A stretch of DNA of 64,000 bases from Mytilisepta virgata (lineage: Eukaryota > Mollusca > Bivalvia > Mytilida > Mytilidae): contig CM051519.1 of NCBI GenBank assembly GCA_028015205.1, positions 42,451,979-42,515,978 of the forward strand, written 5' to 3'. Position 1 is the stretch's first letter. Every line of letters starts with the position of its first letter. Under the pieces are notes generated by a model. The model saw only the letters and a program-made list of their open reading frames with translations. It ran no database searches and was not told the DNA's origin. Below, piece after piece: positions 1 through 61,599 of this stretch. A program made the translations under genes and the position numbers.

Positions 1-1317
1 CGTCGTCAGGAAATGCTGAAAGTCAACCATCTGCTCTTCACCATACAATATAATTGACGGTATATGGTGTTTAGTGTGTTCCACCTTTTGTACAAACGGG
101 TGATCCTTTACCATTTCTAATACATGTAACATCTCGTCAGCTATGTTAGTGGCGGTTGATTTATCTTTGTTTTTTGCACGGTTTCTACACTTAAGATCAC
201 GGAGTTGCTGGAAGTCTTTCGGTGCGTCAAAGGAGTTTTCGAAAACCATTTCTCGGTACACCTGTCTTGGTTTCTTGTTTTGTAACTCAATGGCGGCCTT
301 TTCCATGGTGTTAGGGTTTGTACGGCGATAAGGCTCGAATCTATGCTTAGCATTGCCGTGAAAGTCGTCATAATCTTTTAAAATGCCATTGTATTCTACA
401 AGAGCTACATTTGAAAGTTCTTGTTTCGCATCACAACTGAACCAGTAAGTTCTTTTCTTAAAGTCTGTTTGTCGTTTTAATACAGTGTAATACCTATGCA
501 TGGTTACAACGTCAGATGGGTCAGGCTGTGGTTCTAATGGAACGAAAGTTTTTTGCTTTTTAACCACTTGTGATGCACAATACAGATTTTGTTTCATAAA
601 TACACATTTAAAACCTTGGCTTATAACATAGTACGATTTTGTGGTAGTTCCTTTGCTTGAATCCCACACACCAAGATCGTCATGAAAGGTAGCACGCTGT
701 TTATTTTTATGCCGCTGTGTATTACGTATGTTGTCTACTAATAAAAATTTGTTGTCTTTTGGACCATTTGGAATGTCTGTAAAAAATGGATTACCACTGG
801 TTATTTGTGTATAAATGTTAAAAGCTGAAAGACCGCCTTTCGGAACTTGTTGTAATAAGCAGTTAGTAGCTTCAATGCACGGATCTGATTGGTTGCAGTC
901 ATCTTTTGAACATGGTAATGGTGAAATATAGGTATTGTCAAGATTTGAAGAAGTGTCACTTTGAACATCAACCCCTATTGGTGAAGAAAATGAGACAGGA
1001 ACTGGAATGTCTTTCACTGGTGAAGACTGAAACGACGACGATAGGATAGAACAGTCGTCGGTGCATAGTGAAGGTAAAGTATTAGAAGTGTCCATTTGTG
1101 TTTGCAAGATACCGCTTGGTTGTAACGGGGATGATAGCAATTGGTCGGACAGATTTGTTGTTGAGTTTGGTATGGCGTTCGGCATAGATGGATAGTCATA
1201 CGGACCGGTAGTACGAGGTCTTTTACTCAGTGGGGTACACTGGCTAGGTGACAATGGTGGAAAGTCGTCTAAACTATCAATGCATGGAAGAGTGTTGTGT
1301 ACATTATTTTTACTTCT
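1..1317 (-). CDS. N-terminal part of a MULE-like, mobile-element-derived protein (partial)
   Basis: The minus strand is open for 439 codons from a TAA at 1320-1318 to the window edge, where the protein continues; the first in-frame ATG is 1185-1183 and the true start or splice acceptor is not resolved. The N-terminal third is Ser/Pro-rich with a basic patch (SKRPR). Later come YYTVLKRQTDFKKRTYW, HGNAKHRFEPYRRTNP, KPRQVYREMVFENS and HPFVQKVEH then IPSIILYGEEQM. From memory of the family, such segments precede the transposase-like core in a group of cnidarian and mollusc proteins annotated as MULE-like; that core (expected to start around IGVDRTFNLG) would lie left of the window. No frameshift or stop is seen, so this is a young element or a domesticated gene. 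The open frame is certain; the family name is inference. Confidence 0.65.
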
Positions 1318-3283: not shown

Positions 3284-3391
3284 TATAATCGATGTGAAAT
3301 GTTACTATATATTTAAATAAAAAATGTTTTTAAAAGTTTTGAAAAAGCGAAGACGAGGAGTACGTGCCATAATCAATACAGAGTTATCGGA

Positions 3392-3640
3392 CATGAAAAT
3401 GGACGGTTCTACCCTAGAACCTTTTTTGACAGTTCTATCATAGAACCATTCTGAATGGTTCTACCTAGAACCATTTTGACAGTTCTACACCAGAAAAATC
3501 ATGGGCGGTTCTACCCTAGAACTATTTATGACAGTTCTACCATGGAACAACTTATGACGGTTCTACCTGAGAACCATTTATGACATTTCTACCTTAGAAC
3601 CATTTATGACATGGTTGGTTCTACCCTAGAACCGCCCTGT
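3392..3640. repeat. Minisatellite of about 28 bp palindromic units
   Basis: Repeated units are variants of GGTTCTACCCTAGAACC plus ATTTATGACAGTTCTA. Each unit is itself an inverted repeat (GGTTCTA with TAGAACC). The same array is in copy B at 53250-53460, and a related shorter array is at about 52070-52215. Confidence 0.85.
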
Positions 3641-4404
3641 GAATGATAAATGGCGTAGCTTGCCTCTTTCTTAAGGTGAGGCAAAATATTCCTTTCGCCC
3701 TTTATAAAGGACACAGTTACAGATTTTTTGCTGAACTGGTAAAACGACAAAATATAAATGCAATTGAAAGTTATAAAAAAAATCAAAAACAACACAAAGA
3801 AAAAAACATCAAGGTATTCCGAGATTGGTATATAACCTGGGAAGGCTGAGTCCAGTCTTAAACCAAATCACTTTTACCGAATGGCCATATGACACACATT
3901 TTAACTGCATGTAAATAATACTGGAATTCGGAAATTATGGTTATTTCGATTCCGACTTTGCACACACGTAATTAGGATGAAATGAGGTTTGTAACCATTT
4001 AAAAAAAAGTTTAGGTACAATTCCCAGCCAAGCGTATCTGAACATGTCTTTTCTGTAAGCTTCTCCTGTGCGCAATGGGAGGGGAAAGGGGGGATTAATA
4101 TTTCTCACAATTTACAGCTGAGGCAACCGCCAGACTGATTGAATGGAAAAAATAATAAGTAATTTCTTAAATTGGACCGGGTATATCTGATTTGTATATT
4201 TTACGCTGAAATAAAAATGTATATTAAACATACCTTGTGGGATTTATAGACCTTCAACCATTTAAAATATATCTTATGTCAACACTGGTTGTCTCATTAA
4301 AACTTGCATTCTGGGATTTATATGTCTGAACAAACTGATCAACCAATACATTTTTATCTCCCGTCCTTGAATCATGTACATCTATTTTGACATATAGAAG
4401 GAAG

Positions 4405-4640
4405 ATATTCAGGTATAATCAATGTGTAAAGCCTAGATTGCGGAAGGTCGTGGGTTCGATCCCCTGTCGGGTCAAACCAGACATTAAATTCTCCACCAAG
4501 CACGCGGCATCTAGGAGCTAAGGAATGGTCGACTCAGAGTTAGTATAATTTGTCCCAGTTGGTGATATTTCTTCCTGCGGACAGTTACCTCTTGAGCTAG
4601 CACGTAAAAAATCCGGCACAGCGTGTCGGTCTAGAACAAA
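4405..4640 (+). repeat. tRNA-derived SINE (copy A)
   Basis: A good box B (GGGTTCGATCCCC, near 4450-4463) is followed by a tail ending in CCGGCACAGCGTGTCGGTC. Box A is poorly preserved. Copies of the same unit are at 54335-54565 (plus) and about 39670-39915 (minus). It is not a tRNA gene, because no cloverleaf with paired acceptor ends can be drawn. Confidence 0.6.
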
Positions 4641-5638
4641 GCAAGGATAATATTTATGTGTAAAGAACTTCCATATTTGTTTTATTTGTATATTCATAAC
4701 TGACTTGAAATTTTACTTTTGCATCAAAATGCTTCTGCTATCCTAAAACTCAGTTAAAAACTTCTTTAAAACATACATTTGTAGCTATGGTTTAGATAAT
4801 TTAAAAAATATCGAAAAAATAATAGCGAAGGAATAAGACAATAGACAAATTCTACAAAATGCAAATTCTTGAGAACATACATGTACACTAAAACAACCAA
4901 AACAAAGACACAACTGGCCAATAGAGTTCACCAAATAGAATCAGAACAAGACAGCACATAAACTAAAGCACTTGCAATGTAAACCCTTTGTCTTAATTGA
5001 TGTAGTAGACTTTGGTTTTGCGTTCAATGCAAATGATAGGTTTGGACTTGATCTAACGCTTTCAACTTAACAGGGAGGTCTTAAACAATTTTTATTTGAA
5101 AATAATGGATAAAATATGATAATTATACGTTTTATGGCACCATTGTATAAAAGTATTTACTCCATAGGTATATATTTTCATATTATAATGTTATCACTGA
5201 GTGATTACCGCTTCCTGCTGTGGACCCAGATCTCTTGCTATGTTCCCAGTACTAGCATGATAATTATTTCATCGATATATAAGTAGTAGCTTCATCATCC
5301 ATTGGAATGTTGTTGGTTTAACCTTTTGTACAATTTTTGAACCCACTAATCCAAATATGCGCATTGTAAGCAACATGTTTGTTACTTATTACACAAGTTC
5401 TGTACAAGAAAAAACGAAAGCACAATAGTCGGAATGAGAAATTAAATTACCGGTCGTGGTCAGTATCTGATTAGGAGCAGAGTCTAATGTCCAAGGGTAG
5501 AGGAATGAGACAAATTGCACGACTGAAGCAATTATTATGAAATACCCCTTCGTGACGCAGGGAATGTTTTGCACTATAAAAAACGTCCTAATATTGGCCC
5601 CAAAGGACTGAAAAGTGAATTAAACAAAAGTTTAATAA

Positions 5639-5644
5639 TTTATT
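5639..5644 (-). promoter_or_regulatory. Possible polyadenylation signal, gene A
   Basis: AATAAA on the minus strand, about 200 nt downstream of the stop codon of the copy A BRICHOS-like gene. Conserved in copy B (near 55575). Use not shown. Confidence 0.4.
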
Positions 5645-5839
5645 CAGAGAAAAAGCATTCAAATCAAATAAACAGTACTTTTTTATATTGTTCTGAAAAA
5701 GGTCACAATTAAGAAATATTTGAAACAAATAAACAATTTTACATAATATGTTTTTTTTCTGTACAAATCTATTGAAATAACTCTTAATAACTGTATTGAT
5801 AAAATCCAGATAAGGATCGATCAGTTTCAAGTTCAGTTT

Positions 5840-8800
5840 TTAGCAAATTAGAACCCAATAATAGTACAAGCAGAGAGTATCCATGGACGAATCGCAGTAA
5901 TCAATATAGTAAAAGAAGTAATACTCGCAGCTTCTTTTCTGTTTGCTTATTTGACCTAAAATGATGGAAGAATGATTTATTAAATGATGCTAAATATGAT
6001 AGTTTTGTTAAATACAATACTAATAAAAAGAAGTTAAGAGCTTATCACAGTTATTGCCTACAAATATTTTGCGTAATTATGTAAAAATTTTGACCCTCCT
6101 ACAGTCCAACCAAATTTTGCAGTTCAAGAAAGCGGCCGCCCTCGGTAATCATACTGTATGGCTTTTATACACCTTAGTGTCAGGATAGATAAGGTGGAGG
6201 TTTAGGTATCCATAAAATCGGTTTCGAGGCACGACTGTTCAGTGTCTGTACCAAGACAGACTACCCTAACTCTGTTGCGTTTATGTTTGCGTTTTGTGCT
6301 CTTTTATGTTATTTCTGTTTGGCGTTCTGAATGTCTTTCTTCCATTTGTTAAAGTACCAACACTTTCCATAATGCATCACAATTAATAATTTTTATCTCT
6401 TTTTTTTAATTTGTGAGATGATTAGAATTTGATTTGAGAAAATATCATTTGAAAAGCTCACTTGTAACATCTTTGCCTACACTCAAAAAGTATATATGGT
6501 TTACCTTTACATGAAGCAGGAGTGGTGTAAACAATCTCTGCTCCAGCACACTCGTCTTTAATGTCTTGTGGTACATCTGCTTCGGCAGGTTTGGTGCTAT
6601 TATAACAATCTGATTTCACCTAATAATGTTCAAAGTGTGTTTGTTTTAAGTTACTGATGGATGATAAATTCCTCCATTTTTATTAATATGAATAATTGCT
6701 GAATTTTACTAACATTCAAAGGAACACTACGCTTATCTTCTATTTGCCATTCATTTTATATCCGAAATACCAAAGCCTGGGCTGGAAAATGCAAGTTACA
6801 TTTTTTAACATTTCGTTCATTCTGCAATACAAGATTATCAACAGAGTGTCTGGGTCTGCTGTGAATGTTGATAACATTGCCAAGGAAGGTACAGAAATTT
6901 ATAAAATATTTTTTCCCCATTCTTGGTGCTTTTTCACACTTCTCAGTCCAGTGGTTAAAAAGTATTTAATTTCCACGGGGGTAAAAAGTCTCGTGCAATT
7001 TCCGCAATGCTATTCAAGGATTTTACGGTTATCGGAACTATAAACCTGAGAAGTTCCGAAACTACGTTCATGAAAATTGCGCAGCAACGGCATTTTATTG
7101 AGGGTTTTGAGAAACAGATTTTTTCAATTTACTCGTGAGTTTAAGAATTTTTCCACGATCGATAATTAAATTTTAGATTTTCACAAGCTCGCTAAAGCTC
7201 GCGTGTTTAATATAAAAAATTTAACTATTTCGTACCTGAAGGAGAATCTTTAACAATTGAAATATATAGAGTATTCTATTACTTACAAGATCTATTTCGT
7301 TTGAATCTTATTTTTTTGGAAAGTGAGGAAATATTGAATACTTCATCTATTTGAGCGTATTAATTTAACACTTACTGATGGTTGGAATCGCACTATACAC
7401 TTATCATCTTTCTTAATAATGACATAATCCTGAAATTTAACAATAAGGATATTAGCAAATCGTACTAATGTTATATGGTAATGAAATTACATTCATATAT
7501 TATAAATCAAGGATAGCTTTTGCAAAGAAACAGATCAGTTCTGTTCCACGACTGCTATTTAGAACAGCTCTGGTCAAGAATACGTAAATTTCGATATGCT
7601 GTGTAGTGATTATTTTCTTTTTTTATACTTTAAATGTGGAAGTTTTATCTTTGATGTGTCGTTCGTTTGTTAAGGACACATGAAAGTACCCCAATCACGC
7701 GTCACGAACATAACCACCCCTCGCACCCCCCCCAAGAAAAAATAAATAAAAATGCAAAAATTACAACTTGATCGTCGGCTTCATTTCAGTGTGGTATTTA
7801 TATTCATAGTGTTACAAAAAAACTTTAATTGAAATTTTAGGTTGGGATTTCTTATTTATTCTAAATCGTGACTGTTACCAGAACTGTTCTAGACTATGCC
7901 TGGTTGTAGAACTATTCAAGACCATGACAGGTTAGAGCTGTTCTAGACCATGACAGCTTAGAGTTGTTCTTGACCATGACAACTTAGAGCAGTCATGATT
8001 CTATTCTACGTAATAGCTTTTCTAAAGCAGTTGGCACAACTGTTCTAAGTTAACTTGGTGAGAGGTTATGTCTGCACCCAACTGTATCGGCCCAACCTTG
8101 ACCATAACGTTGGTTTTATTTTGTTAGCATCATAAATTCTTTTAATGAAAGAGCAAATATTAGTACATGATTAATAAATCGCTATCTAGTAAACTTCATC
8201 AAGAAAGGAATTCTCTATTTCAGGAGATTGGTTGGCCCTTGGTGTACTAAACTGCAATTCAGCCCTGGCGAAATTTTAAAAATCTAGGAAAAAGGGCGCC
8301 AATTTAACCCATAGCAAGATATCGTTGAATACCTGGGTCCAGTTGTTCAAACATTAACCACAATTTTCAGTTTCAGATTTTCGCTTCCTTGATTATGCCT
8401 AAGGAGTGAATATTTTCTGATGGGTTAATCCAGTGACTTTGTGTCCATGCAAAATTCTGTAAAGGAGTATTACTTATCAATCGAAATAATTGAAAGTGAA
8501 AAAGTGATTAACTTTTGAACAACTGAGTTCAGGGCTGTCAAAATTCTTTACTGTATTTCACGTGTTACCATATATTTTTCTGAATATTTTTTGGTAAACA
8601 CATTCGAAAGAAATGATTATTTTCTAGGTTATTACAAAACATAAATAAATCAATACTAAAGAAAATATTCTAAAAAAATATTTTTTTAACATGTGTTTAA
8701 TATCATTTTATTTATTTGTTTGTATATGTATGTTTGTTTATTTATCATAATTAAGTACTTGAAAAATAAATATTTCTTTTGGAAAATAAAAACTTAAATT

Positions 8801-10163
8801 AAGAGGAAAAATAAAAAAACATTACTGTACTCGCGACTAATGAAAAAAAATCCGTGATCATATTGCAGTTCACAACTACGTAGTTTTCTAGAATTATGTT
8901 TCTTAAACATTGCTCAATGAATAAAATATAAATATACAACGATGAATAGAAGTGTATATAACAAACATGAAATATTGATATATAAATTATAAATCAAGAA
9001 TCGGCTATGAATTCAGTTCAATAGTTTAATAGGCATCTTAATCCTATTATAAAAGCTTTCTAGAGTTAAACGATAGCTACCTATTGTTCAACGCGCTGAA
9101 AGCTTTTGACGTTCAAACAATCTGACAAGCGTTCAAAATGGGCTGTCCATTTGAACTGTAGCTTGGTATCATTGCCAGCAATTTGAACACTAGCTAGCTA
9201 TTGTCGACCGCCTTTTGCTAGCCTCGCGTTGAACTTTAGCAAGGCTGAGACTGAACTAACAGTCAACAGCTTGCAAAAAACTCGCGGGTCGAAACGACTT
9301 GTTCGGGAACTTTTCGGTTCCAGTCTTAATTTAACGAAGATCGCCAGTTCTTCTGTTTTTTTCTGGAAATTCGATTTCTTCTATCAATAGCACATGTTAT
9401 TATACATGCAATTGTGCTGAACGTAGCGTTAAAGTCAATTAGCATAAATTTAAACAGGATGTTTGGTATCCATCTTCAAAAGTGCAGGTTTAAATAGTTG
9501 TTTTTTTTAAATTATGTTGTTTTTGATTTTTGTAAAATTCAGATTATTTTTAACCGTATTTAATATAAATTTTGTTTCAAACTTCTGAGGTTATTGCATA
9601 TCAATTTTAATTACCTTGCCTGCTGGAATAACTTCCTGTTCTATGTTATTTCCATTTTGTTGTAGTAAATATATTCTTGATCCTTGGAAATCCACTTCCG
9701 TTACATTAAACTGTTCTCCTCCTGGTGAGGATATGTCTGTTGTTTTCATCTGAAGATATAAAATAAAAATTTAATGCAAATCACAAATTTAAAAACGTAC
9801 ACAGTTACATGTATACCAGAGAATCAGGAGGCGAAAACTATGGATTAATTATGTTATCAAAGTCACAGATCGGTATTCGATTTCTGTGAAAACCATTTGT
9901 TTAAGATATATAAAATAAAACATGCCTTTAAAGACTTTCCTCATTAAAACCAATTTATAGACTAATCCTCAATACCATTTTTGGAAAAATAAAATTTGTA
10001 AATTCCGGTGTAAAATATAAAAATGCATGTGTCAATGCAAATTAAATAGTTTTCGGAAAAAAATTAATAACACAGCAGAATTTCAATAACGTTTACTTAC
10101 ATTCAAAGCACTAACGCAAACAAGAAGACATGCGATTCCCCCAATTAGCTTCAGTGCATTCAT
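5840..10163 (-). CDS. BRICHOS-like secreted precursor with C-terminal four-cysteine aromatic peptide (copy A)
   Basis: Five coding exons on the minus strand join in phase: 10163-10101, 9749-9615, 7429-7376, 6619-6505 and 5955-5840, each with GT/AG borders, giving 160 residues. Exon 1 encodes only a signal peptide (MNALKLIGG, then a hydrophobic stretch ending VSALN). Exons 2-4 encode a pro-region containing VDFQGSRIYLL, AGKDYVIIKKDDKCIVRF and DECAGAEIVYTTPASC. This resembles a BRICHOS domain (Asp-Tyr strand, Lys-Cys strand, then a second conserved Cys), but the match is by eye. Exon 5 has SKQKR and then a 30-residue peptide. In known BRICHOS precursors the domain acts as a chaperone for a beta-prone C-terminal segment released by proprotein convertases; that role is inferred here. 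A 5' untranslated exon and TATA box lie near 11349-11443. The exon structure is very well supported; the domain name less so. Confidence 0.85.
5843..5932 (-). other. Predicted mature C-terminal peptide, copy A
   Basis: Thirty codons after KQKR. Cysteines are at positions 2, 13, 21 and 30 (C-x10-C-x7-C-x8-C). Nearly half of the residues are aromatic. Acidic residues are one Glu and three Asp, with no Lys or Arg, so the net charge is about -4. The arrangement allows two disulfides in a hairpin. KQKR lacks Arg at P4, so it is a convertase-type rather than an ideal furin site. Confidence 0.7.
7870..8060. repeat. Short minisatellite related to the GTTCTA repeats
   Basis: Units of about 27 bp built on GACCATGACAGGTTAGAGCTGTTCTA, degenerate, within the intron between coding exons 2 and 3. 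Copy B has it at about 57985-58200 with one more unit. Confidence 0.7.
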
Positions 10164-10704
10164 CTGCAAAATAAAGCAGAAAATTCGGATAACAAATTCT
10201 TTGCGAACAGTAAGCCACGCAGTATTAACCTATAACAGGTTCGGTTGTGTCTAAAACTTTGGATAGCCAAAAATATTGTGTGCCAAAGAATCAATCGTGC
10301 TTAAACATAGTAGCAATTTTAAAATTGATATTATATTTACGAATATGAAAATAACTTGTAGTATATTCATTTTATGTATCATCGCGCCTTGTATATCTTA
10401 TTTTATTATGTTTTTCGTAACCTGGTACGCTTATTTTTGTGTAAGAATCAGAAACTGAAAAGTGGACGACCAAAAGAAATATAGGATAGAGTCGTAGAAC
10501 ATGAGATTCAAGAGTTAGAAAAGGCTCGAAAATTAACAAAAGCACAAGATAGGCAGTTCTGTCTCTAAATTGAGGATATGTTAGATGTAGTTATAAAAAT
10601 TGTATGATTTTAAATTTGATGCATTAATATGGATATTTAAACAAATCACTTTTCATCAGCGATTCTCAAGGTTAAAATGTATATGCAATGATACAAAATT
10701 GTAT

Positions 10705-11130
10705 GCACAAGATGTGCACATTTTGTCGATTTACTACTCATTGGTTGTCCTCTAGCCCAAAAAGTTGAAATCCAAAATAATAACCCCGAGAGAACTTCAA
10801 ATTAAAAAAAAAAACGACCAAAATAGTAAAGCCAAAACCATCAAGGACAAAGCCATGCACGAAATCTAACATCCATATAGCTGTTAATTTTAAAGTATAA
10901 TTTAACTCAAGTATTGAAGTACTAGCAATTGAACTGGTGATATAATCGAAGACTAGTTGTGCACCAAGGGAGCTATCCACTCGGTGATTATAATACATAT
11001 TCTATGATTCTAATTTTTTTGGTGCAAGATTCATTGATTTATCACTTATCATTTGTGCTCAAAGCCAAACATTGAAAGTCAAAACAACAACCGAAAACGT
11101 TGAAGCCAAAAGTGCGGAAAGCCGAAACCG
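10705..11130 (+). repeat. Dispersed repeat (GTGCACATTTTGTCGATTTAC family)
   Basis: The start TGTGCACATTTYGTC followed by AAAGCC/AAAAC-rich blocks recurs at about 36440-36840 and in copy B at about 60865-61300. A reverse-oriented relative is at 19315-19640. Open frames across it are not conserved between copies, so it is not treated as coding. Confidence 0.55.
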
Positions 11131-11348
11131 TCAGATAAAATGTTGAAGAACAGAGTAAATTCCAAAATTACATAAAAAGGATTGCCCATCAACATTAAAA
11201 TAATATATAATAGTAGGAATTAAACAGCCCTATCCCCACAACAAAGAGCTTGACACTATAAAAATTAGCATTACCTATGTATAGCTTTTAACTTATATAC
11301 TATGCCATTTATCATATTATAAGTAAAAAGAGTAGTTTTAATGATTAC

Positions 11349-11412
11349 CTTGATCTGCTTTTGCCTTTAAGGTCTCCTTTTTTCAAACGAGTAAATCTGT
11401 TTAAGGATTGTT
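11349..11412 (-). other. 5' untranslated exon of BRICHOS-like gene, copy A
   Basis: A donor AAG/GTAATC ends this stretch at 11349. The coding exon begins right after an acceptor (TTTTGCAG at about 10171-10164), so at least one non-coding exon is needed. The upstream edge is set about 30 nt below the TATA box and is approximate. Confidence 0.6.
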
Positions 11413-11434
11413 ACGATTACAGTGGATTGCACCC

Positions 11435-11443
11435 CTATTTATA
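11435..11443 (-). promoter_or_regulatory. TATA box of BRICHOS-like gene, copy A
   Basis: TATAAATAG on the minus strand, the right distance above the predicted untranslated exon. About 60 nt further upstream (11503-11514) lies GGGTACTTTCCC, one base longer than a kappaB site, and TTTGCATAT (near 11480-11490) is close to an octamer. All three are kept in copy B. Confidence 0.65.
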
Positions 11444-12119
11444 CAGACTGAACTTCCTTGTGATAACCGGGAAGGGCTAGTTTGCATATGATTAGCGTTT
11501 TTGGGTACTTTCCCGATGTGTTATTGAAAATTTACCAATATTTACCTAGAAACCGCACTAAGTTATTGAAGAAATTTAAATTTAAAGATTTAATTGGAAT
11601 TTTTTGTATTAAAAAAGTATTAAAAAGAATATTGATAAGTTATTTTTGTAAGCAGCAAAGCTTTGAATATTTTTGCAATAGTAGAAGAAGAAAGAATACT
11701 TTGAAGTTTCTTGACCATGAGACTTCCATTTCTATGCAATTCACCCTACAAGAAAGAAATTGAACCCTAATATGTGTAAAACGTGAAAATTTAAGCTTTT
11801 CAATTTAATACTTTCTGAAGCATGTAAAAGAAAGTAGGACTAATACAGTAGTTAGTATTACATATTAGGGATCGAAAAGTCAAATAAATAAACACAAACA
11901 AGACAGATGACTGCATATAACCCGAAAGATGGTACAATTTTTGATTTCTCAGTTTTGAAACTTTCAGCAATAGTAAAAAAAATGTACAATGGGATCACTA
12001 GGGGTGTGTTTAAAAATTTATTAGAAAATACGCAGTTTTCCTTACACATTCAAAGTATACTTTCAATAACTGAATAAGAACATGTGTCAGGATGAAACTA
12101 ATGTCCCGCCTTCGAAGTG

Positions 12120-12620
12120 ATAACCACGAAAAAGCATAGATAGTTCATATCATGATGTACATGTGCACCAATTTTCATCATGATGTGACCCAATCTTCAT
12201 AGACAAAAGCTTAAACGCAAACCTTAACATGAGGATTCATCATCAAATATCCCAACCGTTAAATTTAGGTCAAGACCTTAAAACAGCCTATATTTTAGAA
12301 AGTTCATATCATGACTTACATGTGTAACAAGTTTCATAAAAATGGGACCCCATCTTTATAGAAAAAAGCTTCAACGCAAACCTTAACCTGAGGATTCACT
12401 ATCACATTTCTCATGTTCACTGAACCGTGAAATTTAGGTCAAGACCTTATAACAGCATATATTTTGGAAAGTTCATATCATGACTTACAGTGTAGATGTG
12501 TACCAAGTCTCTTGATGATGTGAAAAAGATTTCAACCCAAACCTTAACCTAGGAACGAATGAACGAACGGACGGACGCACAAACCGAAAGTCTATATGTC
12601 CCCAACTATTGGTGCTGGGA
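12120..12620 (+). repeat. Tandem repeat element, about 175-180 bp unit, 2.5-3 copies
   Basis: Units begin GTTCATATCATGA and contain CAAACCTTAACMTGAGGATTC and TTTAGGTCAAGACCTT. The array ends in GAACGGACGGACGCAC and GGGACATAAAA. Present in copy B at 62282-62790. Resembles the core of non-autonomous Helentron-like elements, by analogy only. Confidence 0.65.
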
Positions 12621-13072
12621 CATAAAACTATACATCATGGAGGGTTGATAAACAGCCTTGGTTCTTGTAAACATTCCAGTATTCCTCTGGCATTGTCTTA
12701 ATCGGAATGCACCATTGTTTATTCTCGGTCAAAGTAGCTTTCACTTTCAAATATTTGCCATCTTATCCCCGTTACCCGTTGTTGTGCTGGAGAGAGAATA
12801 TGTTTTCCCCTATAGCCTGCACCATTCTTTCAGACATAACATTTTGTTATCTGACCGCGGCGCTTCGTGTTGTTAAAATCAAACTACATGTACATGTAGT
12901 AGTATATCCACAAATGATAGACACGAAATTTGGGTTTATAAACAACAGAATTAAGTAAACAATGAACTGATTTGGATTTCAAAAAAGTAAAAATACATTT
13001 ACATATTTTGGGTTTTAAAACATTTAGTCCTTGAGTCGAAAATGGACAAAATATACACATTTGTTCCTTGTT

Positions 13073-14135
13073 ATCCCCGCACTTCGAATGAAGTTCGGGG
13101 ATATTTGTAATCGGTCTGTCTGACCGTCCGTCTATCCATCCGTTAGATAATCTTGTCTCCAGATCTCCTCGTTCATTTTTAACTTCATGCATTTAATTTC
13201 TATACAGTATTGTGACAAACTGTATGTAGATGTGCAATATGGTTTTTGAATTTTGATTTTTAAAAATTGGGGTCCACATGGGTCGAATTTCAAAAATTGG
13301 AAGGTTAAGCTTGTGACCTAGACTACTCATACATATTTCATGTTATGCTTTAATTTCTATACAGTATTGTCACATACTGTATGTAGATGTGCAATAAGGT
13401 TTTAGAATTTTGATTTACATAAAATGGGGCCCACAGCGGTCGGATTTTGAAAATTGGAATTTAAGCTTGTGACCTAAACTCCTTATTCATTTTTCACGTC
13501 ATGCATTTAACTTCTATACAATAGTGTCCCATACTATATGTTAATGCGCAATAAGGTTTTAGAATTTTGAATTTCAAAAATTGGAGCCCACATGCGTCGA
13601 ATTTCGAAAACTGGAAATTTAAACCAAACTCCTTTCTCATTTTATGCTTTTAATTTCTATACAATATTGTCACATACTGTATGTAAATGCGCAATAAGGT
13701 TTTATAATTTTAATTTTGAAAACTTGAGGCCCACAGGGAATCAGGGATTGTATTTCGGAAATAGTGAATTTAAGCTTGTGCCTTAAACTCCTCTTTCATT
13801 TTTCATTTAGATTTAGCAAGTTTATTTGTATATAATATTGTTCTTTATTTTCTGTAGATGTGCAAAAAAGTTTTTAATTTTGAAATCTATTTTAAAGGGT
13901 TCAAATTTTGGGACCGAAAATGGTGAAATTGCTAATTTTGCCTTGTCTCTGGAAATACTCATTCACTTTTTGTTTCAGTGGTTTCATTTGTTGATAATAT
14001 TGTTCTTCGCTATGTGTAGATGTGCAATAAGATTTTCAATTTTGAAATTTGAATCAGGGTTCCAATTTTTAGACTGAAATTGTGAAATTGGTAATTTTTC
14101 ACTGTTAATTGTTTTTTGCGGGGATGGACATCGTT
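13073..14135 (+). repeat. Tandem repeat element headed by a hairpin, unit about 145-160 bp
   Basis: It starts with an inverted repeat (13073-13102, arms ATCCCCGCACTT and AAGTTCGGGGAT) and then TCCGTCTATCCATCC. About six units follow, each starting TAATTTCTATACAGTATTGT and containing GATGTGCAATAAGGTTTT. It closes with TTTTTTGCGGGGATGG near 14117, which echoes the head. The frames inside are repeat shadows. Copy B has the same element from 63235 to the window end. Confidence 0.75.
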
Positions 14136-14139
14136 TCTG

Positions 14140-15770
14140 ATGGCACCAACTTATAGTTTAATTTGGTTTACCAAATTCATTAATATCGTGTATTTTCCCT
14201 AATCTGGAATGTTCTTTATATTATCCTAGACAGGTGCAGTGATAAATGTTCAAATATATCCCACCCACAAATTAAAAAAAGTATATACGTGCAATATATA
14301 GTTTACTCTTTGAAGTTAAGTGCATGGATCTTTTGATTATGCAATTACATGTATGAAGTATGTTAATGCACGCAGGTTAAATTTATTAATGTTTTTAAAA
14401 AAAACATTATTTTAATGATTTAGGTCATTTCCCTAAAGTATCTTTTATGGTGTTTCGAAATCATCTATAACTGCGTAGAAATGATACGAGAAACAGGTTA
14501 ATGTATTCACAAGACTAATTCATAACATAGTAAAATTTTAATACGGAAAACAGCACTGGTATTTATTTTATGAAGTTTATCGTTAATCATTTTTTGGCAA
14601 CATACGAACGATTAAAACATATAAGGATTAGACCACGCCTTCTTTCATCTAATTGACCGGACTGCTTTTTTAACAAAAACAGACTTGTCGCGGTACCTTT
14701 GGGTTCCAACGATGCATCATTACTGGAGCATCCAACATTCTAAATTCGGACCAATGTTTCCAACCTGATCTCAACAGTTTTCTACGGGGCAAATTTTAAG
14801 ACAATGATAGTGCTATGACTTCTCAGAATATACATGTACGAATTCGGCTCGTATCGCTATACAATATATGTACATTGTCGGAAAATATACAATGTATTTG
14901 TACGAGCCTTAAAAACAGGTAGAAATGCGAGGTTTGTCCAGTATATCACACCTGTTCCGCGGCGAATGCTAATAAATTGTACATTTCCCGACAATGCACA
15001 GAGCCCGAGATAATTTTTTCTAGTTAAATCAGGGAGTAAATACCTCCAAGGTTTTAAGAGAGATGAGTATTTAACCTCCGAACAGCAGGATCGAAGGGGT
15101 AAAATGAAAAATTAAGGGGTAAAATGCATCTTACGTTTTACCAAATTGAATCATAAGCGCTGCTTTTTTCACCCATATTAATACTGTTGATGAACACTCA
15201 ATTACATTCCTATGTCTTGCCAATGCCGACATGTTTTTTTAAAATACCGTAGACTATAAGGGCAGAGGCAGGCACTATTTTATGAAGAGAAAAACTCTCA
15301 AGCCTTATGAAATATTTATTATGTCAATAATCACTGTAGCTTAGAGGTAAATAAATGTGAGCAATGACGCTTTGTTTTCCGAAACCTGTGCGTAGTTATT
15401 TTTGACTAAGCATAACTTTAAAGGCCAGAAAATATTTTACAAGCATATCTGTCATTTTTTAATACGTAAATGACGCTGATACGCACGTTATCTGGGGCTC
15501 TCATGCCTGCAATTATAAATTATTATCTTTTAATAAGAAAAGTCACATTTTTACCGTGTAATCTAGGGATAACATGACGTCATAAACACTGTGAACCAGC
15601 ACACAAAACTAAATTTAATTGCAAGTGGAGACAAGGGTGCCTACTAGACGAATATCTAAAAAAAGAAACCTTTTATTTTTCTACTAGAAAAAGTTGCAAG
15701 ATAAAAGAAAATACTTGGTACATCCTCGAATTTTTCTCCGATTCTGGGTCTCATGGTTCTTGAATTCAAT
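14140..15770. other. Non-coding stretch between copy A and array 1
   Basis: AT-rich sequence; I see no exon, RNA gene or clear element. A weak inverted repeat around GGCTCGTA and TACGAGCC lies near 14847-14906. Confidence 0.4.
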
Positions 15771-15774
15771 TCTT

Positions 15775-17475
15775 GAATAATATTCCCCTCTGGCAGCCAT
15801 CTTCAATGGTAGACAGGGTCATCGGAAACACTTCTGAAAAAGGACCAACTAATGACCATTGCTGCCAAGTTTTGTTCCAATTGGCCCAGTGGTTTCAGAC
15901 AAGAAGATATTTAAGTAAATTTCCCTTAAGTTCCAATCTTAAAAAAAGGACAAATATACCTAAGGAGCAATCAAAACAAACGTAATCCACTGGACAGACA
16001 AACCCGGGAAGACAAATGAACAACCACAAGCACAACAAATAAACACAGAAAACTAAAAAATAATGAACAACACAAACTCCTATAAAAACCAGGAGTGAAC
16101 CCAGGTGCTCCGGAAGGGTAAGCAGTTCCTGCTCCGTATACGGCACCCGTCGTGAAGTTCAACAAAGTCAATCCGGTGGAAGTCACAAATCGGTGGAGGC
16201 ACATGAAAGGTTACGACAGTGGAAACAGGTCTGACATCATCTTAGATATTGGAACACTGTAATGGTCAATCAATTCGTGATGACGACCGTAAAATTTCCT
16301 AAGTGATGACATCAACTTTTCCCTGATAAAACCCTGGTTAAGAAGCTTTTGTGACAGCAGAAATCGTCTTTGTCGAAAGTCAGGGTAACTCACGCATGTC
16401 CTTGAAAATCGAATAAGCTGAGAAACGTAGACGCCATCATCACGTTTGTCATAAAGTTTTGTCTTCAAACGTCCCTCATAGTCTATTTCAAGAAACAAAT
16501 CCAAATATGAAGCGGACTTTGGTGTATCTGTAGTATCCTTAATTTCAAGCTCACTGGGGTAGATAAGATGTAGACAGTCTTGGAATTTGTCGTTATTTAA
16601 ACTATGTTCGGCTCTTGCGGCCATCTTGGGTGGCGGGCGGAGTCATCGGATACAATTATGAACGAGGATTACCCAAGGACCATTACTGCCAAGTTTTGTT
16701 GCAATTGTGGTTTCAGACAAGAAGATTTTAAGTAATTTCCCCAAAAGGTCCTATTTTAAACTATGTTCGGCTCTTACGGCTATCTTGGATGGCGGGCGGG
16801 GTAATCGGTTATAATTCTGATAGATGACCACCCAAGGATCATTTCTGTCAAGTTTTGTTCCAATTGGCTTGGTGGTTTCAGACAAGATCTTTAACTAAAT
16901 TTCCCTTAGGGGTCCTATGTTAAACTATATTCGGTTCTGGTGTCCATCCTGGATGATGGGCCGGGTCATCGGATAACACTTCTGAAAAAAGAACACCCAA
17001 GGACCATTGCTGCTAAATTTTGTTCCAATAGGACAAGTGGTTTCAGACGAGAAGATCTTTTAGTAAATTTCCCATAGGGTCATTTGTTAAACTATGTTCG
17101 GCTTTGGTTGCCATCTTAGATAGCAGGCGAGGTCATCGGATATAATTGTGAAAGAGGACCACCCAAGGACCATTGCTGCCAAGTTTTGTTCTAATTGGCA
17201 GAGTGATTTCAGACAAGATCTATAAGTAAATATCCCATAGGGCCTATGTTACACTATGTTCGGCTCTGGCGGCCATCTTGGATGGCGGGCTGGGTCATCG
17301 AAAATAATTCTAAAAGAGGACCATCTAAGAACCATTACTGTCAAGTTTTGTTGTAATTGGACCTGTGGTTTGAGAGGAGAAGGTCTTAAATAAAGTTTAC
17401 GACGACGACGGACAACGCACGACGGACTCAAAGTGATGGTAATAGCTCACGTGACCCTTTGGGTCAGGTGAGCCA
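15775..17475 (-). mobile_element. Helentron-like tandem-repeat element 1 (minus), hosting an RT fragment
   Basis: Read on the minus strand, it starts near 17475 with GGCTCACCTGACCC and a hairpin partner GGGTCACGTGAGC, then GTCGTCGTCGTAAAC. Degenerate units of about 165 bp follow, with recurring GGCGGCCATCTTGGATGGC, AGGACCATTGCTGCCAAG and CTATGTTCGGCTCTGG (16619-17300, and again 15785-15950). The array is split by a reverse-transcriptase fragment at about 15970-16600. The 3' terminal hairpin is missing. Similar arrays in bivalves (pearl-type) have been linked to Helentrons; that assignment is inference. Confidence 0.65.
16211..16600 (-). pseudogene. Retroelement reverse-transcriptase C-terminal fragment
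   Basis: The minus frame contains LHLIYPSELEIKDTTDTPKS, ASYLDLFLEIDYEGRLKTKL, YDKRDDGVYVSQLIRFSRTC and LRKFYGRHHELID. These are recognisable C-terminal reverse-transcriptase motifs of a family common in bivalves. About 20 residues normally between KRDD and GVY appear to be missing, which suggests an in-frame deletion. The catalytic core is absent. The first nine residues of the longest frame come from the surrounding tandem repeat, so the fragment landed inside that array. Its 3' tail continues to about 15970. The retroelement clade is not settled. Confidence 0.7.
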
Positions 17476-52215: not shown

Positions 52216-53249
52216 CCTGGCAATAGTTTATGAATTTTGAACATCAAAATTATAAGAAATAAAATAATTAATTTGTTGTCACCATTTTAAAATCAACTTT
52301 TATTATACCGAAATATATTGTAGAGTAAAAAAAGAAAAAAAATCATTCGGAATAAAGTTTTTTCTAAAACTAAATGATTTAAAAACTAGTCGGTGTTATT
52401 TGCTAGTACATAAAACATTCCTCTTCATATGTTTCGACAAGAGAACACTTTAAATCAAGATTTAATGTGTAAAATGTCCATATATGTACGTTATGTAATT
52501 TTTCGATAAATTGGTGAAATACACCTCTTATATCAAAATGGTGGTACTCATCCGAATCATTTTCTATCTTGTCATAACGAAATAAATATCGTTCATGCGA
52601 GCAAAGAGAATTAATAATATAATATATCAAATGTTTACTATCTAAAAATGGTAAAAAAATTTAATATAAAACAAATTAAAATATTACTTATCGGACACAT
52701 TTGAAATTTCTGCATTGAAATTTGGGACCACCTTATACACACCTCTTTATTCAAATGCTGCATTAATTATTTTAAAATGTGGCCTTTTAAAATTTGGAAC
52801 CCCGCTGATTTTGTCAGCAAAACTGTTTATCTGTATACATACTCATGTATCTGTGTACCTTAAAGGTTGGAAATATAAACATCCGGACAGTCAAGGGACA
52901 ATATACATGTCCAAACGTTAATTAGTTATAATTACATGAAACACACAACATGTTACGGATAACAAATTTCTTTACCTGTAAATTTATTTATTCACGATAA
53001 TTATTTTTGGGTTAAAAAATGAAAGAAAACAAACTGCACCATAGCTCTATATTACATGTATGTACTTTTGCTGTTTTGTATAAATTGGTCATAAATTTAA
53101 TATTATTAATTATTATCATAATTTCATATATTGAAATTATAATCGATGTGAAATGTTACTATATATTAAAAAAAAATGTTTTTAAAAGTTTTGAAAAAGC
53201 GAAGACGAGGAGTACGTGCCATAATCAATACAGAGTTATCGGACATGAA

Positions 53250-54565: not shown

Positions 54566-55775
54566 AAGCAAGGATAATATTCATGTGTAAAGAACTTCCA
54601 TATTTGTTTTATTTGTATATTCATTACTGACTTGAAATTTTAATTTTGCATCAAAATGCTTCTGCTATCCTAAAACTCCGTTAATAACTTCTTTAAAACA
54701 TACATTTGTAGCTATGGTTTAGATAATTTAAAAATATCGGAAAATTAATACCGAAGCAATAAGACCATAGACAAATTCTACAAAATGCAAATTCTTGAGA
54801 ACATACATGTACATACATGTACACTAAAACAACAAAAACAAAGACACAACTGGCCAATACAGTTCACCAAATAGAATCAGAACAAGACAGCACATAAACT
54901 AAAGCACTTGCAATGTAAACCCTTAGTCTTAATTGATGTAGTAGACATTGGTTTTGCGTTCAATTCAAATGATAGGTTTGGACTTGATCTAATGCTTTCA
55001 ACTTAAAAGGGATGTCTTACAAAATTTTTATTTGAAAATAAGGGATAAAATATGATAAATATACGTTCTATGGCATCATTGTATAGAAGTATTTACTCCA
55101 TAGGTATATATTTTCATATTATAATGTTATCACTGAGTGATTGCCGCTTTCTGCTGTGGACCCAGGTCTTTTGCTATGTTCCCAGTACTAGCGTGATAAT
55201 TATTTCATCGACATATAAGTAGTAGCTTCATCATCCATTGGAATGTTGTTGGTTTAACCTTTTGTACAATTGTTGAACCCACTAATCCAAATTAGTATTG
55301 TAAGCAACCTGTTTATTACTTATTACACAAGTTCTGTACAAGAAAAAACGAAAGCACAATAGTCGGAATGAGAAATTAAATTACCGGTCGTGGTCAGAAT
55401 CTGATTAGGAGCAGAGTCTAATGTCCTAGGGTGGAGGAATGAGACAAATTGCACGACTGAAGCAATTATTATGAAGTACCCCTTCGTGACGCAGGGAATG
55501 TTTTGCACTATAAAAAAAACGTCCTAATATTGGCCCCCAATGGACTGAAAAGTGAATTAAGGAAAAGTTTAATAATTTATTCAGAGAAAAAGCATTCAAA
55601 TCAAATATACAGTACTTTTTTATATTGTTCTGAAAAAGGTCTCAATTAAGAAATATTTGAAACAAATAAACAATTTTACATAATATGATTTTTTCTGTAC
55701 AAATCTATTGAAATAACTCTTAATAACTGTATTGATAAAATCAAGATAAGGATCGATCAGTTTCAAGTTCAGTTT

Positions 55776-58700
55776 TTAGCAAATTAGAATCCAATAATAG
55801 TACAAGCAGAGAGTATTCATGGACGAATTGCAGTAATCAACATAGTAATAGTAGTAATACCAGCAGCTTCTTTTCTTTTTGCTTATTTGATCTAAAATGA
55901 TGGAAGAATGATTTATTAAATGATGCTAAAAATGATATATATTTGTTAAATACAATAAACAATAAAAACAAGTTAAGAGCTTATCACAGTTATTGCCTAC
56001 AAATATTTTGTGTAATTATGTAAAAATTGCCCTTTTCCCTTTGACTTAAAGACTTTAATTTCATACTGGACGTTCTGATACTATCGATTTCAGTTAAACT
56101 CTACGACGAGATAGCATCAAACCGATTATGGGAGCGTCATTTCTGACAATTTTGTTTAATAGATCACATTATTCGACCAGCAGCTATGAGAGCCTTATCT
56201 AGTATTACAACTAAAACGTGCACATTTTGACTCTCCTACAGTCCAACCAAATTTTGGAGTTCTAGCAAGCGGCCGCCCTTGGTAATAATACTGTATGGCT
56301 TTTATACACCTTAGTGTCAGGACAGATAAGGTGGAGGTTTAGGTATCCATAAAATCGGTTCGAGGCACGACTGTTCAATGTCTGTACCAAGACAGACTAC
56401 CCTAACACTGTTGTGTTTATGTTTGCGTTTTGTGCTCTTTTATGTTATTTCTGTTTGGCGTTCTGAATGTCTTACTTCCATTTGTTAAAGTACCAACACT
56501 TTCCATAATGCATCACAATTAATAATTTTTATCTTTTTTTTTTAATTTGTGAGGTGATTAGAATTTGATTTGAGAAAATATCATTTGAAAAGCTCATTTG
56601 TAACATCTTTGCCGACACTGAAAAAATATATATGGTATACCTTTACATGAAGTAGGAGTGGTATAAATAATCTCTGCTCCAGCACACTCGTCTTTAACGT
56701 CTTGTGGTACATCTGCTTCGGCAGGTTTGGTGCCATCATAACAATCTGATTTCACCTGATAATGTTCAAAGTGTGTTTGTTTTAAGTTACTGATGGATGA
56801 TAAATTCCTCCATTTTTATTAATATGAATAACTGCTGAATTTTACTAACATTCAAAGGAACACTACGCTTATCTTCTATTTGCCATTCATTTTATATCCG
56901 AAATACCAAAGCCTGGGCTAGAAAATGCAAGTTACATTCTGCAATACAAGATTATCAACAGAGTGTCTGGGTCTGCTGTGAATGTTGATAACATTGCCAA
57001 GGAAGGTAAAGAGATTTATAAAATATTTTTTCCCAATTCTTGGTGCTTTTTCACACTTCTCAGTCCAGTGGTTAAAAATTATTTAATTTCCACGGGGGTA
57101 AAAAGTCTCGTGCAATTTCCGCAATGCTATTCAAGGATTTTACGATTATCGGAACGATAAACTTGAGAAGTTCCGAAACTACGTTCATGAAAATTGCGCA
57201 GCAACGGCATTTTATTGAGGGTTTTGAGAAACACATTTCTTCAATTTACTCGTGAGTTTAAGAATTTTTCCCGTGTTTGATATAAAAAATTTAACTATTT
57301 CGGGTGGAGAAATTCCACAACTCACTCGTACCTGAAGGAGAATCTTTAACAACTGAAATATATAGAGTATTCTATTACTTACAAGATCTATTTCGTTTGA
57401 ATTTTTTTTTTTTGGAAAGTGAGGAAATATTGAATACTTCATCTATTTTGAGCGTATTAATTTAACACTTACTGATGGTTGGAATCGCACTATACACTTA
57501 TCATCTTTCTTAATAATGACATAATCCTGAAATTTAACAATAAGGATATTAGCAAATCGTACTAATGTTATGGTAATGAAGTAACATTCATATATTATAA
57601 ATCAAGGATAGCTTTTGCCAAGAATCAGATCAGTCCTGTTCCACGACTGCTACTTAGAACAGCTCTGGTCAAGAATTAGTAAATTTCGATATGCTGTGTC
57701 GTGATTATTTTCTTTTTTATTCTTGAAATGTGGAAGTTTGATCTTTGATGTGTTGTTCGTTTGTTAAGGACGCATAAAATACCCCAATCACGCGTCACGA
57801 ACATAACCATCCCCTGCACACACCCCCCCCCAAAAAAACCAAAAAAAATAATAAAAAAAAAAAAAAATAAATAAAAAAATAAAAATGCAAAATATTATAA
57901 CTTGATCATCGGCTTTATTTCAGTGTGGTATTTATATTCATAGTGTTACAAAAAGATTTTACTTGAAATTTTAAGTTATTCTAAATCGTGACTGTTACTA
58001 GAACTGTTCTGGACTATGCCTGGTTATAGAACTGTTCAAAACCATGACAGGTTAGAGCTGTTCTAGACCATGACAAGTTAGAGTCTTTCTAGACCATGAC
58101 AGCTTAGAGTTGTTCTTGACCATGACAACTTAGAGCAGTCAGGATTCTATTCTACGTAATAGCATTTCTAAAGCAGTTGGCAGAACTGTTCTAAGTTAAC
58201 TTGGTGAGAGGTTATGTCTGGACCTAACTGTATCGGCCCAACCTTGACCATAACGTTGGTTTAATTTTGTTAGCATCATAAATTCTTTTAATGAAAAAGC
58301 AAATATTAGTACATGATTAATAAATCGCTCTCTAGTAAACTTCATCAAGAAAGGAATTCTCTATTTCAGGAGATTGGTTGGCCTTGGTGTACTAAACTGC
58401 AATTCAACCCTGGCGAAATTTTAAAAAAGCTAGGAAAAAAGGCGCCAATTTAACTCATAGCAAGATATCGTTGAATACCTGGGTCCACTTGTTGAAACAT
58501 TAACCACAATTTTCAGTTTCAGATTTTCGCTTCCTTGATTATGCCTGAGGAGTGAAAATTTTCTGACGGGTTAATCCAGTGACTTTGTGTCCATGCAAAA
58601 TTCTGTAAAGGAGTATTACTTATCAATCGAAATAATTGAAAGTGAAAAAGTGATGAACTTTTGAACAACTGGGTTCACGGCTGTCGAAATTCTTTACTGT

Positions 58701-60320
58701 ATTGCACGTGTTACCATATATTTTTGTGAATATTTTTTGGTAAACACATTCGAAAGAAATGATTATTTTCTAGGTTATTACAAAACATAAATAAATCAAT
58801 ACTAAAGTAAATATTCTAAAAAATAATTTTTTTAAACACAAATAAAATATTTTTTTTATATCATTTTATTTATTTGTTTTATATGTATGTTTGTTTATTT
58901 ATCATAATTAAGTACTTGAAAAATAAATATTTCTTTTGGAAAATAAAAACTTAAATTAAGAAGAAAAATAAAAAACATTACTATACTCGCGACTAATGAA
59001 AAAAAAATCCGTGATTATATTGCAATTCACAACTATGTAGTTTTCTAGAATTATGTTTCTTAAACATTACTAAATGAATAAAATATAAATATACAACAAT
59101 GAATAGAAGTGTATATAACAAACATGACATATTAATATATAAATTATAAATCAAGAATCGGCTATGAATTCAGTTCAATAGTTTAATAGGCATCTTAATC
59201 CTATTACAAAAGCTTTCTAGAGTTAAACGATAGCTACCTATTGTTCAGCGCGCTGAAAGCTTTTAACGTTCAAACAATCTGTCAAGCGTTCAAAATGGGC
59301 TGCCCATTTGAACTGTAGCTTGGTATCATTGCCAGCAATTTGAACACTAGCTAGCTATTGTCGACCGCCTTTTGCTAGCCTCGCGTTGAACTTTAGCAAG
59401 GCTGAGACTGTACTAACAGTCAACAGCTTGCAAAAAACTCGCGGGTCGAAACGACTTGTTCGGGAACTTTTCGGTTCCAGTCTTAATTTAACGAAGATCG
59501 CCAGTTCTTCCGTTTTTTCTGGAAATTCGATTTCTTCTATCAATAGAACATGTTATTATACATGCAATTGTACTGAACGTAGCGTTAAAGTCAATTAACA
59601 TAAATTTAAACAGGATGTTTGGTATCCATCTTCAAAAGTGCAGGTTTAAATAGTTGTTTTTTTTTAAATTATGTTGTTTTTGACTTTTGTAAAATTCAGA
59701 TTATTTTTAACCGTATTTAATATAAATTTTGTTTCAAACTTCTGAGGTTATTGCATATCAATTTTAATTACCTTGCCTGCTGGAATAACTTCCTGTTCTA
59801 TGTTACTTCCATTTTGTTGTAGTAAATATATTATTGATCCTTGGAAATCCACTTCCGTTACTGTAAACTGTTCTCCTCCTGGTGAGGATATGTCTGTTGT
59901 TTTCATCTGAAGATATAAAATAAAAATTTAATGCAAATCACAAATTTAAAAACGTACACAGTTACATGTATACCAGAGAATCAGGAGGCGAAAACTATGG
60001 ATTAATTATGTTATCAAAGTCACAGATCGGTATTCGATTTCTGTGAAAACCATTTGTTTAAGATATATAAAATAAAACATGCCTTTAAAGACTTTCCTCA
60101 TTAAAACAAATTTATAGACTAATCCTCAATACCATTTTTGGAAAAATAAAATTTGTAAATTCCGGTGTAAAATATAAAAATGCATGTGTCAATGCAAATT
60201 AAATAGTTTTCGGAAAAAAATTAATAACACAGCAGAATTTCAATAACGTTTACTTACATTCAAAGCACTAACGCAAACAAGAAGACATGCGATTCCCCCA
60301 ATTAGCTTCAGTGCATTCAT
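55776..60320 (-). CDS. BRICHOS-like secreted precursor with C-terminal four-cysteine aromatic peptide (copy B)
   Basis: Coding exons 60320-60258, 59906-59772, 57526-57473, 56755-56641 and 55891-55776 have the same lengths (63, 135, 54, 115, 116) and phases as copy A and give 160 residues. Exons 1 (signal peptide) and 3 (DYVIIKKDDKCIVRFQPS) are identical to A. Exon 2 differs at three residues (N to T, R to I, N to S). Exon 4 differs at five, and exon 5 at nine, including the cleavage site (KKKR against KQKR). All splice sites are intact; the donor after exon 4 is GTATAC, not GTAAAC. The promoter, untranslated exon and polyadenylation signal are also kept, so both copies look functional. Confidence 0.85.
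55779..55868 (-). other. Predicted mature C-terminal peptide, copy B
   Basis: Thirty codons after KKKR; cysteines again at 2, 13, 21 and 30. The run CWYYYYYYVDYC replaces the copy A N-terminal half, and both Asp of the middle loop are Asn (CNSSMNTLC), creating an N-S-S sequon. Net charge is about -1. Twelve residues are Tyr or Trp. Confidence 0.7.
56036..56220. other. About 185 bp present in B and absent from A
   Basis: Located in the intron between coding exons 4 and 5. Copy A reads straight from GTAAAAATT to TTGACCCTCC. No terminal repeats were recognised, so it may be a deletion in A. Confidence 0.7.
57985..58200. repeat. GACCATGACA/GTTCTA minisatellite (copy B)
   Basis: Counterpart of 7870-8060 with one added unit (AGTCTTTCTAGACCATGACA). 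Confidence 0.7.
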
Positions 60321-61568: not shown

Positions 61569-61590
61569 ACGATTGCAGTGGATTGCACCC

Positions 61591-61599
61591 CTATTTATA
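61591..61599 (-). promoter_or_regulatory. TATA box of BRICHOS-like gene, copy B
   Basis: TATAAATAG, with GGGTACTTTCCC at 61659-61670 as in copy A. Confidence 0.65.

Follow-up and report, generated by a model that had tools for sequence, protein, structure and literature searches.

Gene A, on the minus strand of Mytilisepta virgata contig CM051519.1 (assembly GCA_028015205.1), is best explained overall as encoding a BRICHOS-like precursor that would release an acidic, self-associating defence hairpin, a reading in which our confidence is evenly balanced. The gene lies in a stretch of 64,000 nucleotides (positions 42,451,979 to 42,515,978 of the forward strand), referred to as the window, and coordinates given without a contig name are positions in it. 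A preliminary description had placed five in-phase exons here; these are confirmed, with introns that are all GT-AG and in phases 0, 0, 0 and 1, and with 160 codons plus a stop. Coding exon 1 (10101..10163, phase 0) encodes the signal-like peptide MNALKLIGGIACLLVCVSALN, and coding exon 2 (9615..9749, phase 0) encodes part of the pro-region. Coding exon 3 (7376..7429, phase 0) contributes C77, the putative first BRICHOS-type cysteine, and coding exon 4 (6505..6619, phase 1) contributes C89, C108 (the putative second BRICHOS-type cysteine) and C121. Coding exon 5 (5840..5955) holds the convertase site KQKR, the mature peptide and the stop; cleavage at this site would free a 30-residue peptide encoded by 5843..5932.

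The splicing pattern is predicted from the DNA letters. The acceptor TTTTGCAG abuts the ATG at 10163, a TATA box (TATAAATA, 11436..11443, minus strand) lies upstream and is kept in the second copy of the gene, and a donor (AAG/GTAATC) closes a probable 5' untranslated exon at 11349..11410 on the minus strand, whose start is put about 30 nt past the TATA box. Therefore, a non-coding first exon is likely, and counting it gene A would have six exons and five introns. A polyadenylation signal, AATAAA, is found at 5639..5644 (minus strand). A signal peptide had also been proposed, and a signal-like start is indeed present, with a hydrophobic 8-mer (Kyte-Doolittle score 3.4) and V-x-A at residue 19, A19 being one of three cleavage candidates given by a simple rule rather than by SignalP. 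Scanning 264 kb in all six frames for a four-cysteine C-terminal pattern preceded by a basic site gave two matches, gene A and a tandem paralogue, B. A chance reading frame was ruled out by the paralogue, by the rarity of the pattern in that scan and by the common exon phases.

The released peptide follows the C-x10-C-x7-C-x8-C pattern that had been described, and its reported acidic and extremely aromatic character holds: 11 of its 30 residues are Phe, Trp or Tyr, four are acidic and none is basic, for a net charge of -4. The peptide of B has 12 aromatic residues in 30 and a net charge of -1, and both peptides are without Lys, Arg and His. Tyr alone accounts for 8 of 30 residues in A and 10 of 30 in B, and both strands are aromatic. 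In reduced form the two peptides have average masses of 3849 and 3937 Da. The cysteines stand at positions 2, 13, 21 and 30, such that the predicted strands fit nested pairs, downstream of KQKR in A and KKKR in B. AlphaFold2, run on the single sequences of the two 30-residue peptides, predicts a two-strand hairpin with strands at 3-12 and 20-29. The five models have a predicted local distance difference test score (pLDDT) of 94.5, 92.8, 92.4, 65.9 and 60.6 for A, with a predicted template modelling score (pTM) of 0.45, and of 89.7, 89.4, 73.9, 63.6 and 61.7 for B, with a pTM of 0.38. The low pTM and a pLDDT below 75 in two of the five A models and three of the five B models weigh against the proposed hairpin, and a model of a lone hairpin proves little. 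A Foldseek search of the A model against PDB returned 18 matches, none at E <= 0.001, as is to be expected for a lone hairpin.

Paralogue B is a complete gene (60320-55776) with the exon phases, GT-AG sites, TATA box and polyadenylation signal of gene A. All of its features are on the minus strand: the TATA box at 61592..61599, coding exons 1 to 4 at 60258..60320, 59772..59906, 57473..57526 and 56641..56755, coding exon 5 with KKKR, peptide and stop at 55776..55891, and AATAAA at 55576..55581. Cleavage would release a 30-residue peptide, also predicted to form a hairpin, encoded by 55779..55868. Between A and B the frame, stops, splice sites and all eight cysteines of pro-region and peptide are retained. 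The paralogue, a third copy, the probable 5' untranslated exon and a set of cationic relatives all go beyond the preliminary description.

The relatives came from searching all six frames of the 1.03 Gb genome (109 contigs), in which the counts of matches are lower bounds. With protein A as the query, 20 of the 22 scored candidates match, comprising A, B and the third copy, C, together with weak hits on contig C11 and at other places on C12. With one of the C11 proteins, G38, as the query, all 19 candidates match, and all fall in the known loci or in one apparently broken member on C11. The family therefore comprises eight loci (A, B, C, G36, G37, G38, G39 and the broken one), seven of which are apparently intact over the exons found. 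G36, G37 and G38, on C11, each have five coding exons in the phases of gene A; G39, on C12, has coding exons 2-5 in the same phases, and its coding exon 1 was not found in the DNA read around the match. In the broken-looking member (L049 and L050; C11:51728601-51729600), exon 4 contains a stop and has lost a cysteine, and no peptide exon is intact.

After the dibasic site, the last exons of these relatives encode peptides that are cationic and rich in cysteine: WICRFYCYWRVSCSCWLPLRCSLRRVCVIRCGW in G38 (net +6, seven Cys), WSCRYYRCCYWRVYCSCRSRRRCSLRPVCYYRCMW in G37 (net +9, eight Cys), RVCGYYRRCYWRVYCSCFRPRRCGLRSVCYHLCGDLPTALK in G36 (net +8, seven Cys) and FCRIRCYLRLTCSWLKCSLKLVCVLCCF in G39 (net +5, seven Cys). 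Judged by these letters, the peptides of G36-G39 would be antimicrobial in kind. In an alignment of five precursors (A, B and G36-G38), four pro-region cysteines, the KR and four peptide cysteines are invariant. The G38 peptide has three cysteine pairs in exact cross-strand register about a seven-residue loop, and the peptides of G36 and G37 retain the two inner cross-strand pairs of that frame. A and B have the inner pair, with the loop length of the relatives, and a terminal pair, while the position of the relatives' middle pair is taken by Phe and Val in A and by Tyr and Ile in B. These features suggest that the window genes form an acidic, Tyr-rich branch of a defence-peptide-like family. 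Because cationic peptides make up four of the six distinct ones, the simpler reading is that A and B are the derived, changed branch. The odd number of cysteines in the putative released peptides of G36 and G38 (C11:51694489-51707148), seven in each, is a separate observation, and it may allow covalent dimers.

The coding sequences of A and B are separated by 20 substitutions, 19 nonsynonymous and one synonymous, and NG86 estimates of nonsynonymous and synonymous divergence (dN/dS) are 0.050/0.015 overall, 0.035/0.018 for the pre-pro part and 0.114/0 for the peptide. The synonymous share is 1/20 for all coding sequence (p 0.039), 1/12 for the pre-pro part (p 0.21) and 0/8 for the peptide (p 0.12), where all p values for selection between A and B are uncorrected. 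Exon 5 has changed at 10 of 116 positions, against 41 of 1045 in its flanks (intron 4 and 500 bases downstream; one-sided p 0.025), and a wider comparison of exons 4 and 5 with introns 3 and 4 and the downstream bases gives no significant excess of divergence (p 0.15). These figures are suggestive of diversifying change in the peptide exon of A and B, short of proof. For G36 and G37, dN/dS is 0.036/0.184 in the pro-region and 0.22/0.485 in the peptide; on these ratios the pro-region is under purifying selection, and the peptide less so.

A and B lie in a segmental duplication whose copies are about 50.2 kb apart, recognized from tandem-repeat coordinates first and then by blastn (3284-13838 versus 53138-64000, in pieces), with an identity of 86-97% by piece. 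The third copy, C, is found from C12:42837384 onward, 385 kb away, and its five coding exons are identical to those of gene A. The duplication thus exists in three copies of mosaic identity, A and C being 100% identical in places, suggesting gene conversion. Identity between A and B is 99.7% in intron 1, 98.7% in the upstream 2.5 kb and 93-96% in introns 2-4, and this gradient points to a recent conversion event at the 5' end. At the offset of copy C, window positions 200-700 are 100% identical and 15000-15500 are 97% identical, and 42300-42800 has no match. Therefore, copy C does not seem to be simply a repeated haplotype of the whole region.

Whether the pro-region belongs to BRICHOS was approached by profile searches, gene structure and profile comparison. 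The genome does contain a genuine BRICHOS gene, at C11:63257596-63259555 (two exons joined, 53 bits, Pfam E 3.1e-14), which we take to be of ITM2/Bri2 type by its likeness to human sequence; an exon upstream of the one with its first cysteine was not found within 2.5 kb. This gene and the family of A and G36-G39 have intron phases 0, 0 and 1 across the domain in common. The intron before the first cysteine lies 10 codons from it in the family and 12 in the genuine gene, and the intron after the second cysteine lies 14 (A) or 15 (G37-G39) codons from it, compared with 14. C77 and C108, the candidates for the paired strand-4 and helix-2 cysteines of BRICHOS, are invariant in the five precursors, and the relatives carry a BRICHOS-like end, CG-x-x-x-IVYV. 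When six pro-regions were compared with four BRICHOS sequences, of which one was confirmed in PDB, a local match aligned the helix-2 cysteine and the last strand with a score of 16.9, reached by none of 150 column shuffles, and placed the second cysteine in register with that of BRICHOS, at about half the cysteine spacing. The four relatives alone score 19.4, reached by 1 of 150 shuffles, and matched locally to chondromodulin alone they give P 6.5e-4.

Several results weigh against this kinship. The preliminary description had named an empty BRICHOS profile search beforehand as part of the case against itself, and scanning A, B, G36, G37 and G38, the five members covered, against Pfam gave no match to BRICHOS (PF04089) up to an E of 10, with HMMER filters that discard most matches above about 0.1. 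The weak Pfam matches that did appear (S-layer, DUF4223, TNV_CP, TraI_2B, HH_signal and GFRP, E 0.017-0.21) are far under the cut-offs where these are shown and were rejected. NCBIfam gives no BRICHOS match for protein A, and sequence searches of PDB with A, the G38 pro-region and two- and five-member profiles gave no BRICHOS and nothing useful. A search of the genome with the BRICHOS profile has no match at E <= 0.001 and three places at E <= 10, none above the cut-off and none in the family of A and G36-G39. The middle intron, although equal in phase, is placed 7 codons past the first cysteine in the family and 24 in the genuine gene, and the two cysteines are 31-34 residues apart rather than 60. 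By eye, the Asp in QDK of G36-G39, the candidate for the conserved Asp that closes strand 2 of BRICHOS, is a Gly (AGK) in A and B, which have another Asp two residues past that Gly. The local match spans the end motif only and is carried mainly by the relatives; these give P 0.11, 0.26 and 0.39 with the other three single BRICHOS sequences, and a global comparison has no signal, its scores being reached by 50 and 61 of 150 shuffles.

On balance the pro-region is probably kin to BRICHOS. Since kinship is likely but the tests of strict membership failed, the favoured description of the pro-region is a shortened, divergent BRICHOS relative rather than a strict member. The likeness to BRICHOS that had been proposed thus stands in the intron pattern of a genuine BRICHOS gene and in a local profile match due mainly to the relatives, and falls short in Pfam for the five members. 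The proposed kinship of design with BRICHOS-type antimicrobial precursors is supported, as is a precursor seemingly built for the release of an aromatic, acidic hairpin with paired cysteines; strict BRICHOS membership is the part that did not hold.

In the proposed working of the precursor, the signal peptide would route it into the secretory pathway. In BRICHOS proteins the pro-region guards a beta-prone tail from aggregation until release by a convertase, according to the accessible parts of three reports (PMC9714404, PMC6265681, PMC10745061). By analogy, the pro-region of about 105 residues would keep the aggregation-prone tail soluble while the nested cysteine pairs close, and a furin-like convertase would cut after KQKR or KKKR to free the predicted 30-residue two-strand hairpin. 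The distant members would release Arg- or Lys-bearing, multi-cysteine, hairpin-like peptides, presumably with antimicrobial activity. The window branch would have kept this architecture with no Lys or Arg and without the cysteine pair that sits in the middle in the C11 relatives, both strands of its hairpin being filled with Tyr, Phe, Trp and Leu. Because the acidic branch cannot act by positive charge and both of its strands are aromatic, hydrophobic self-association is the natural alternative. The most likely task of the peptides of A and B is to defend the host or protect its surfaces through hydrophobic self-association, independent of charge, on microbes or mucus.

A different origin for the pro-region, as an unrelated small pro-domain that resembles BRICHOS by convergence, would account for the empty Pfam results in five members, the short distance between cysteines and the missing global signal; it is made unlikely by the agreement with the genuine BRICHOS gene of this genome in three intron phases and in the positions of two introns, and by the end motif in register. 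Comparably unlikely is a structural or adhesive role, in which a peptide recruited from a defence family would serve as a cross-linkable block (through 3,4-dihydroxyphenylalanine (DOPA), dityrosine or disulfide) for byssus, periostracum or mucus. DOPA is a component of mussel glue proteins, and the Tyr content and the aromatic residues of both strands fit this role, but the three genes are small and encode single peptides without repeats, and their relatives resemble antimicrobial peptides.

Lower still ranks a conventional membrane-active antimicrobial peptide that is acidic by happenstance: the predicted hydrophobic disulfide hairpin and the family likeness to BRICHOS-type antimicrobial precursors suit it, yet neither peptide has Lys, Arg or His, and the BRICHOS-related C-terminal parts of H. 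filiformis are rich in positive residues in the accessible text of that study (PMC10745061). It is improbable to nearly the same degree that the acidic hairpin is a partner which assembles together with the relatives' cationic hairpins and tunes or neutralizes them; the opposite net charges (-4 and -1 versus +5 to +9) on one cysteine frame invite the idea, and the near neutrality of B speaks against it. Least credible is a decaying or spurious gene, where the acidic change would reflect loss of function in an unconstrained copy. The excess of nonsynonymous over synonymous change between A and B, with no purifying selection, and the broken relative on C11 agree with decay, but A and B retain their splice sites, stops and all eight cysteines, and the divergence of exon 5 above its flanks, on an uncorrected p value that the wider comparison does not share, hints at diversifying change rather than neutrality.

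Other features of the window and genome were recorded alongside the precursor genes. Two arrays of a 162-167 bp tandem repeat, at 16597-17394 and 50117-50942, have opposite orientations. The segment at 200-700 has further copies on C14, C10 and C1 (96-100% identical) and may be a young dispersed repeat or duplication. An open frame of 145 residues at 42336-42773 has no Pfam match at E <= 0.1, and of its region there is one copy at 93% in inverted orientation and a second at 86%, on the same contig. Four long open reading frames of the window, out of 26 listed, have no Pfam match at E <= 0.1, an Rfam scan of the window has no matches, and a scan for prokaryotic promoters was set aside as inapplicable. 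In the genome, 150 of 150 scored candidates for C1q domains match, among 526 candidates; a C1q expansion of such size is typical of bivalves and fits the bivalve host that the preliminary description had guessed. Several C1q matches on C103 and C92 have counterparts of equal score on C2 and C6, suggesting haplotype copies retained in the assembly.

The closest known systems are the polychaete BRICHOS antimicrobial precursors (arenicin, alvinellacin, capitellacin, nicomicin and HfBRI), which, in the accessible portions of their descriptions, likewise have a signal peptide, an acidic pro-region with conserved cysteines, a dibasic convertase site and a cysteine-containing C-terminal peptide, often a disulfide hairpin. 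Preproalvinellacin likewise has five introns, encodes its peptide in the final exon and occurs in tandem copies, as far as the accessible text tells (PMC5431198). In Alvinella, the same text places the diversity in the BRICHOS part and the introns around a nearly invariant peptide, whereas here the peptide exon diverges most. In contrast to the polychaete precursors, the family has a shorter pro-domain, below Pfam detection, and the peptides of A and B are acidic and contain neither Lys nor Arg; a cationic mature peptide marks the polychaete precursors, and the peptides of G36-G39 fit this mark while those of A (-4) and B (-1) do not. The host also differs, being a bivalve. A 2022 review, in its accessible part, has BRICHOS antimicrobial peptides solely in polychaetes (PMC9756803), and a 2026 review includes Mollusca in its list of phyla that have beta-hairpin antimicrobial peptides and, in the part available, credits the BRICHOS-derived ones to marine worms (PMC13001179). 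Among the titles and abstract openings of the open-licence literature on BRICHOS and molluscs there is no report of a BRICHOS peptide family in a bivalve; the sole bivalve mention found is an unnamed BRICHOS-domain protein among the up-regulated transcripts of mussel digestive gland, in the accessible text of PMC4203926. OAF, a BRICHOS relative by fold comparison, likewise has a signal peptide, a convertase site and a C-terminal hairpin with nested cysteines, as described in the accessible part of PMC9714404, but none of the five members scanned has a Pfam match to OAF.

If the reading of a BRICHOS-like precursor is right, BRICHOS-type peptide precursors would be no polychaete speciality, and one genome would contain a natural series of hairpins, grading from strongly cationic to acidic and all built on a single cysteine frame and gene plan. 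Such a series would test whether the chaperone domain persists for aggregation-prone cargo of any charge, and whether defence peptides can give up electrostatic killing in favour of hydrophobic self-assembly in the salt of sea water. More tentatively, the family may be a bivalve BRICHOS-type defence family in which one branch moved from an Arg-driven, multi-bridge hairpin to a Tyr-ladder hairpin, lacking positive charge, that forms salt-insensitive nets or amyloid-like coats. The chaperone domain would then have been co-opted to hold the hairpin soluble until release, and the assembling peptide would have diversified rapidly. Human alpha-defensin 6 (HD6) and oyster big defensin are likewise defence peptides that assemble partly via hydrophobic contacts; they have other folds and other genes, such that the analogy is one of mechanism only. 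In the accessible parts of the two reports, the hydrophobic domain of the oyster peptide forms nets and confers salt stability (PMC6805989), and HD6 is stored as an inactive propeptide and freed by proteolysis, proHD6 assembling only once its pro-region is cut off (PMC4827351). The putative Tyr-ladder hairpin, if true, would be an invertebrate parallel to HD6 on an unrelated scaffold.

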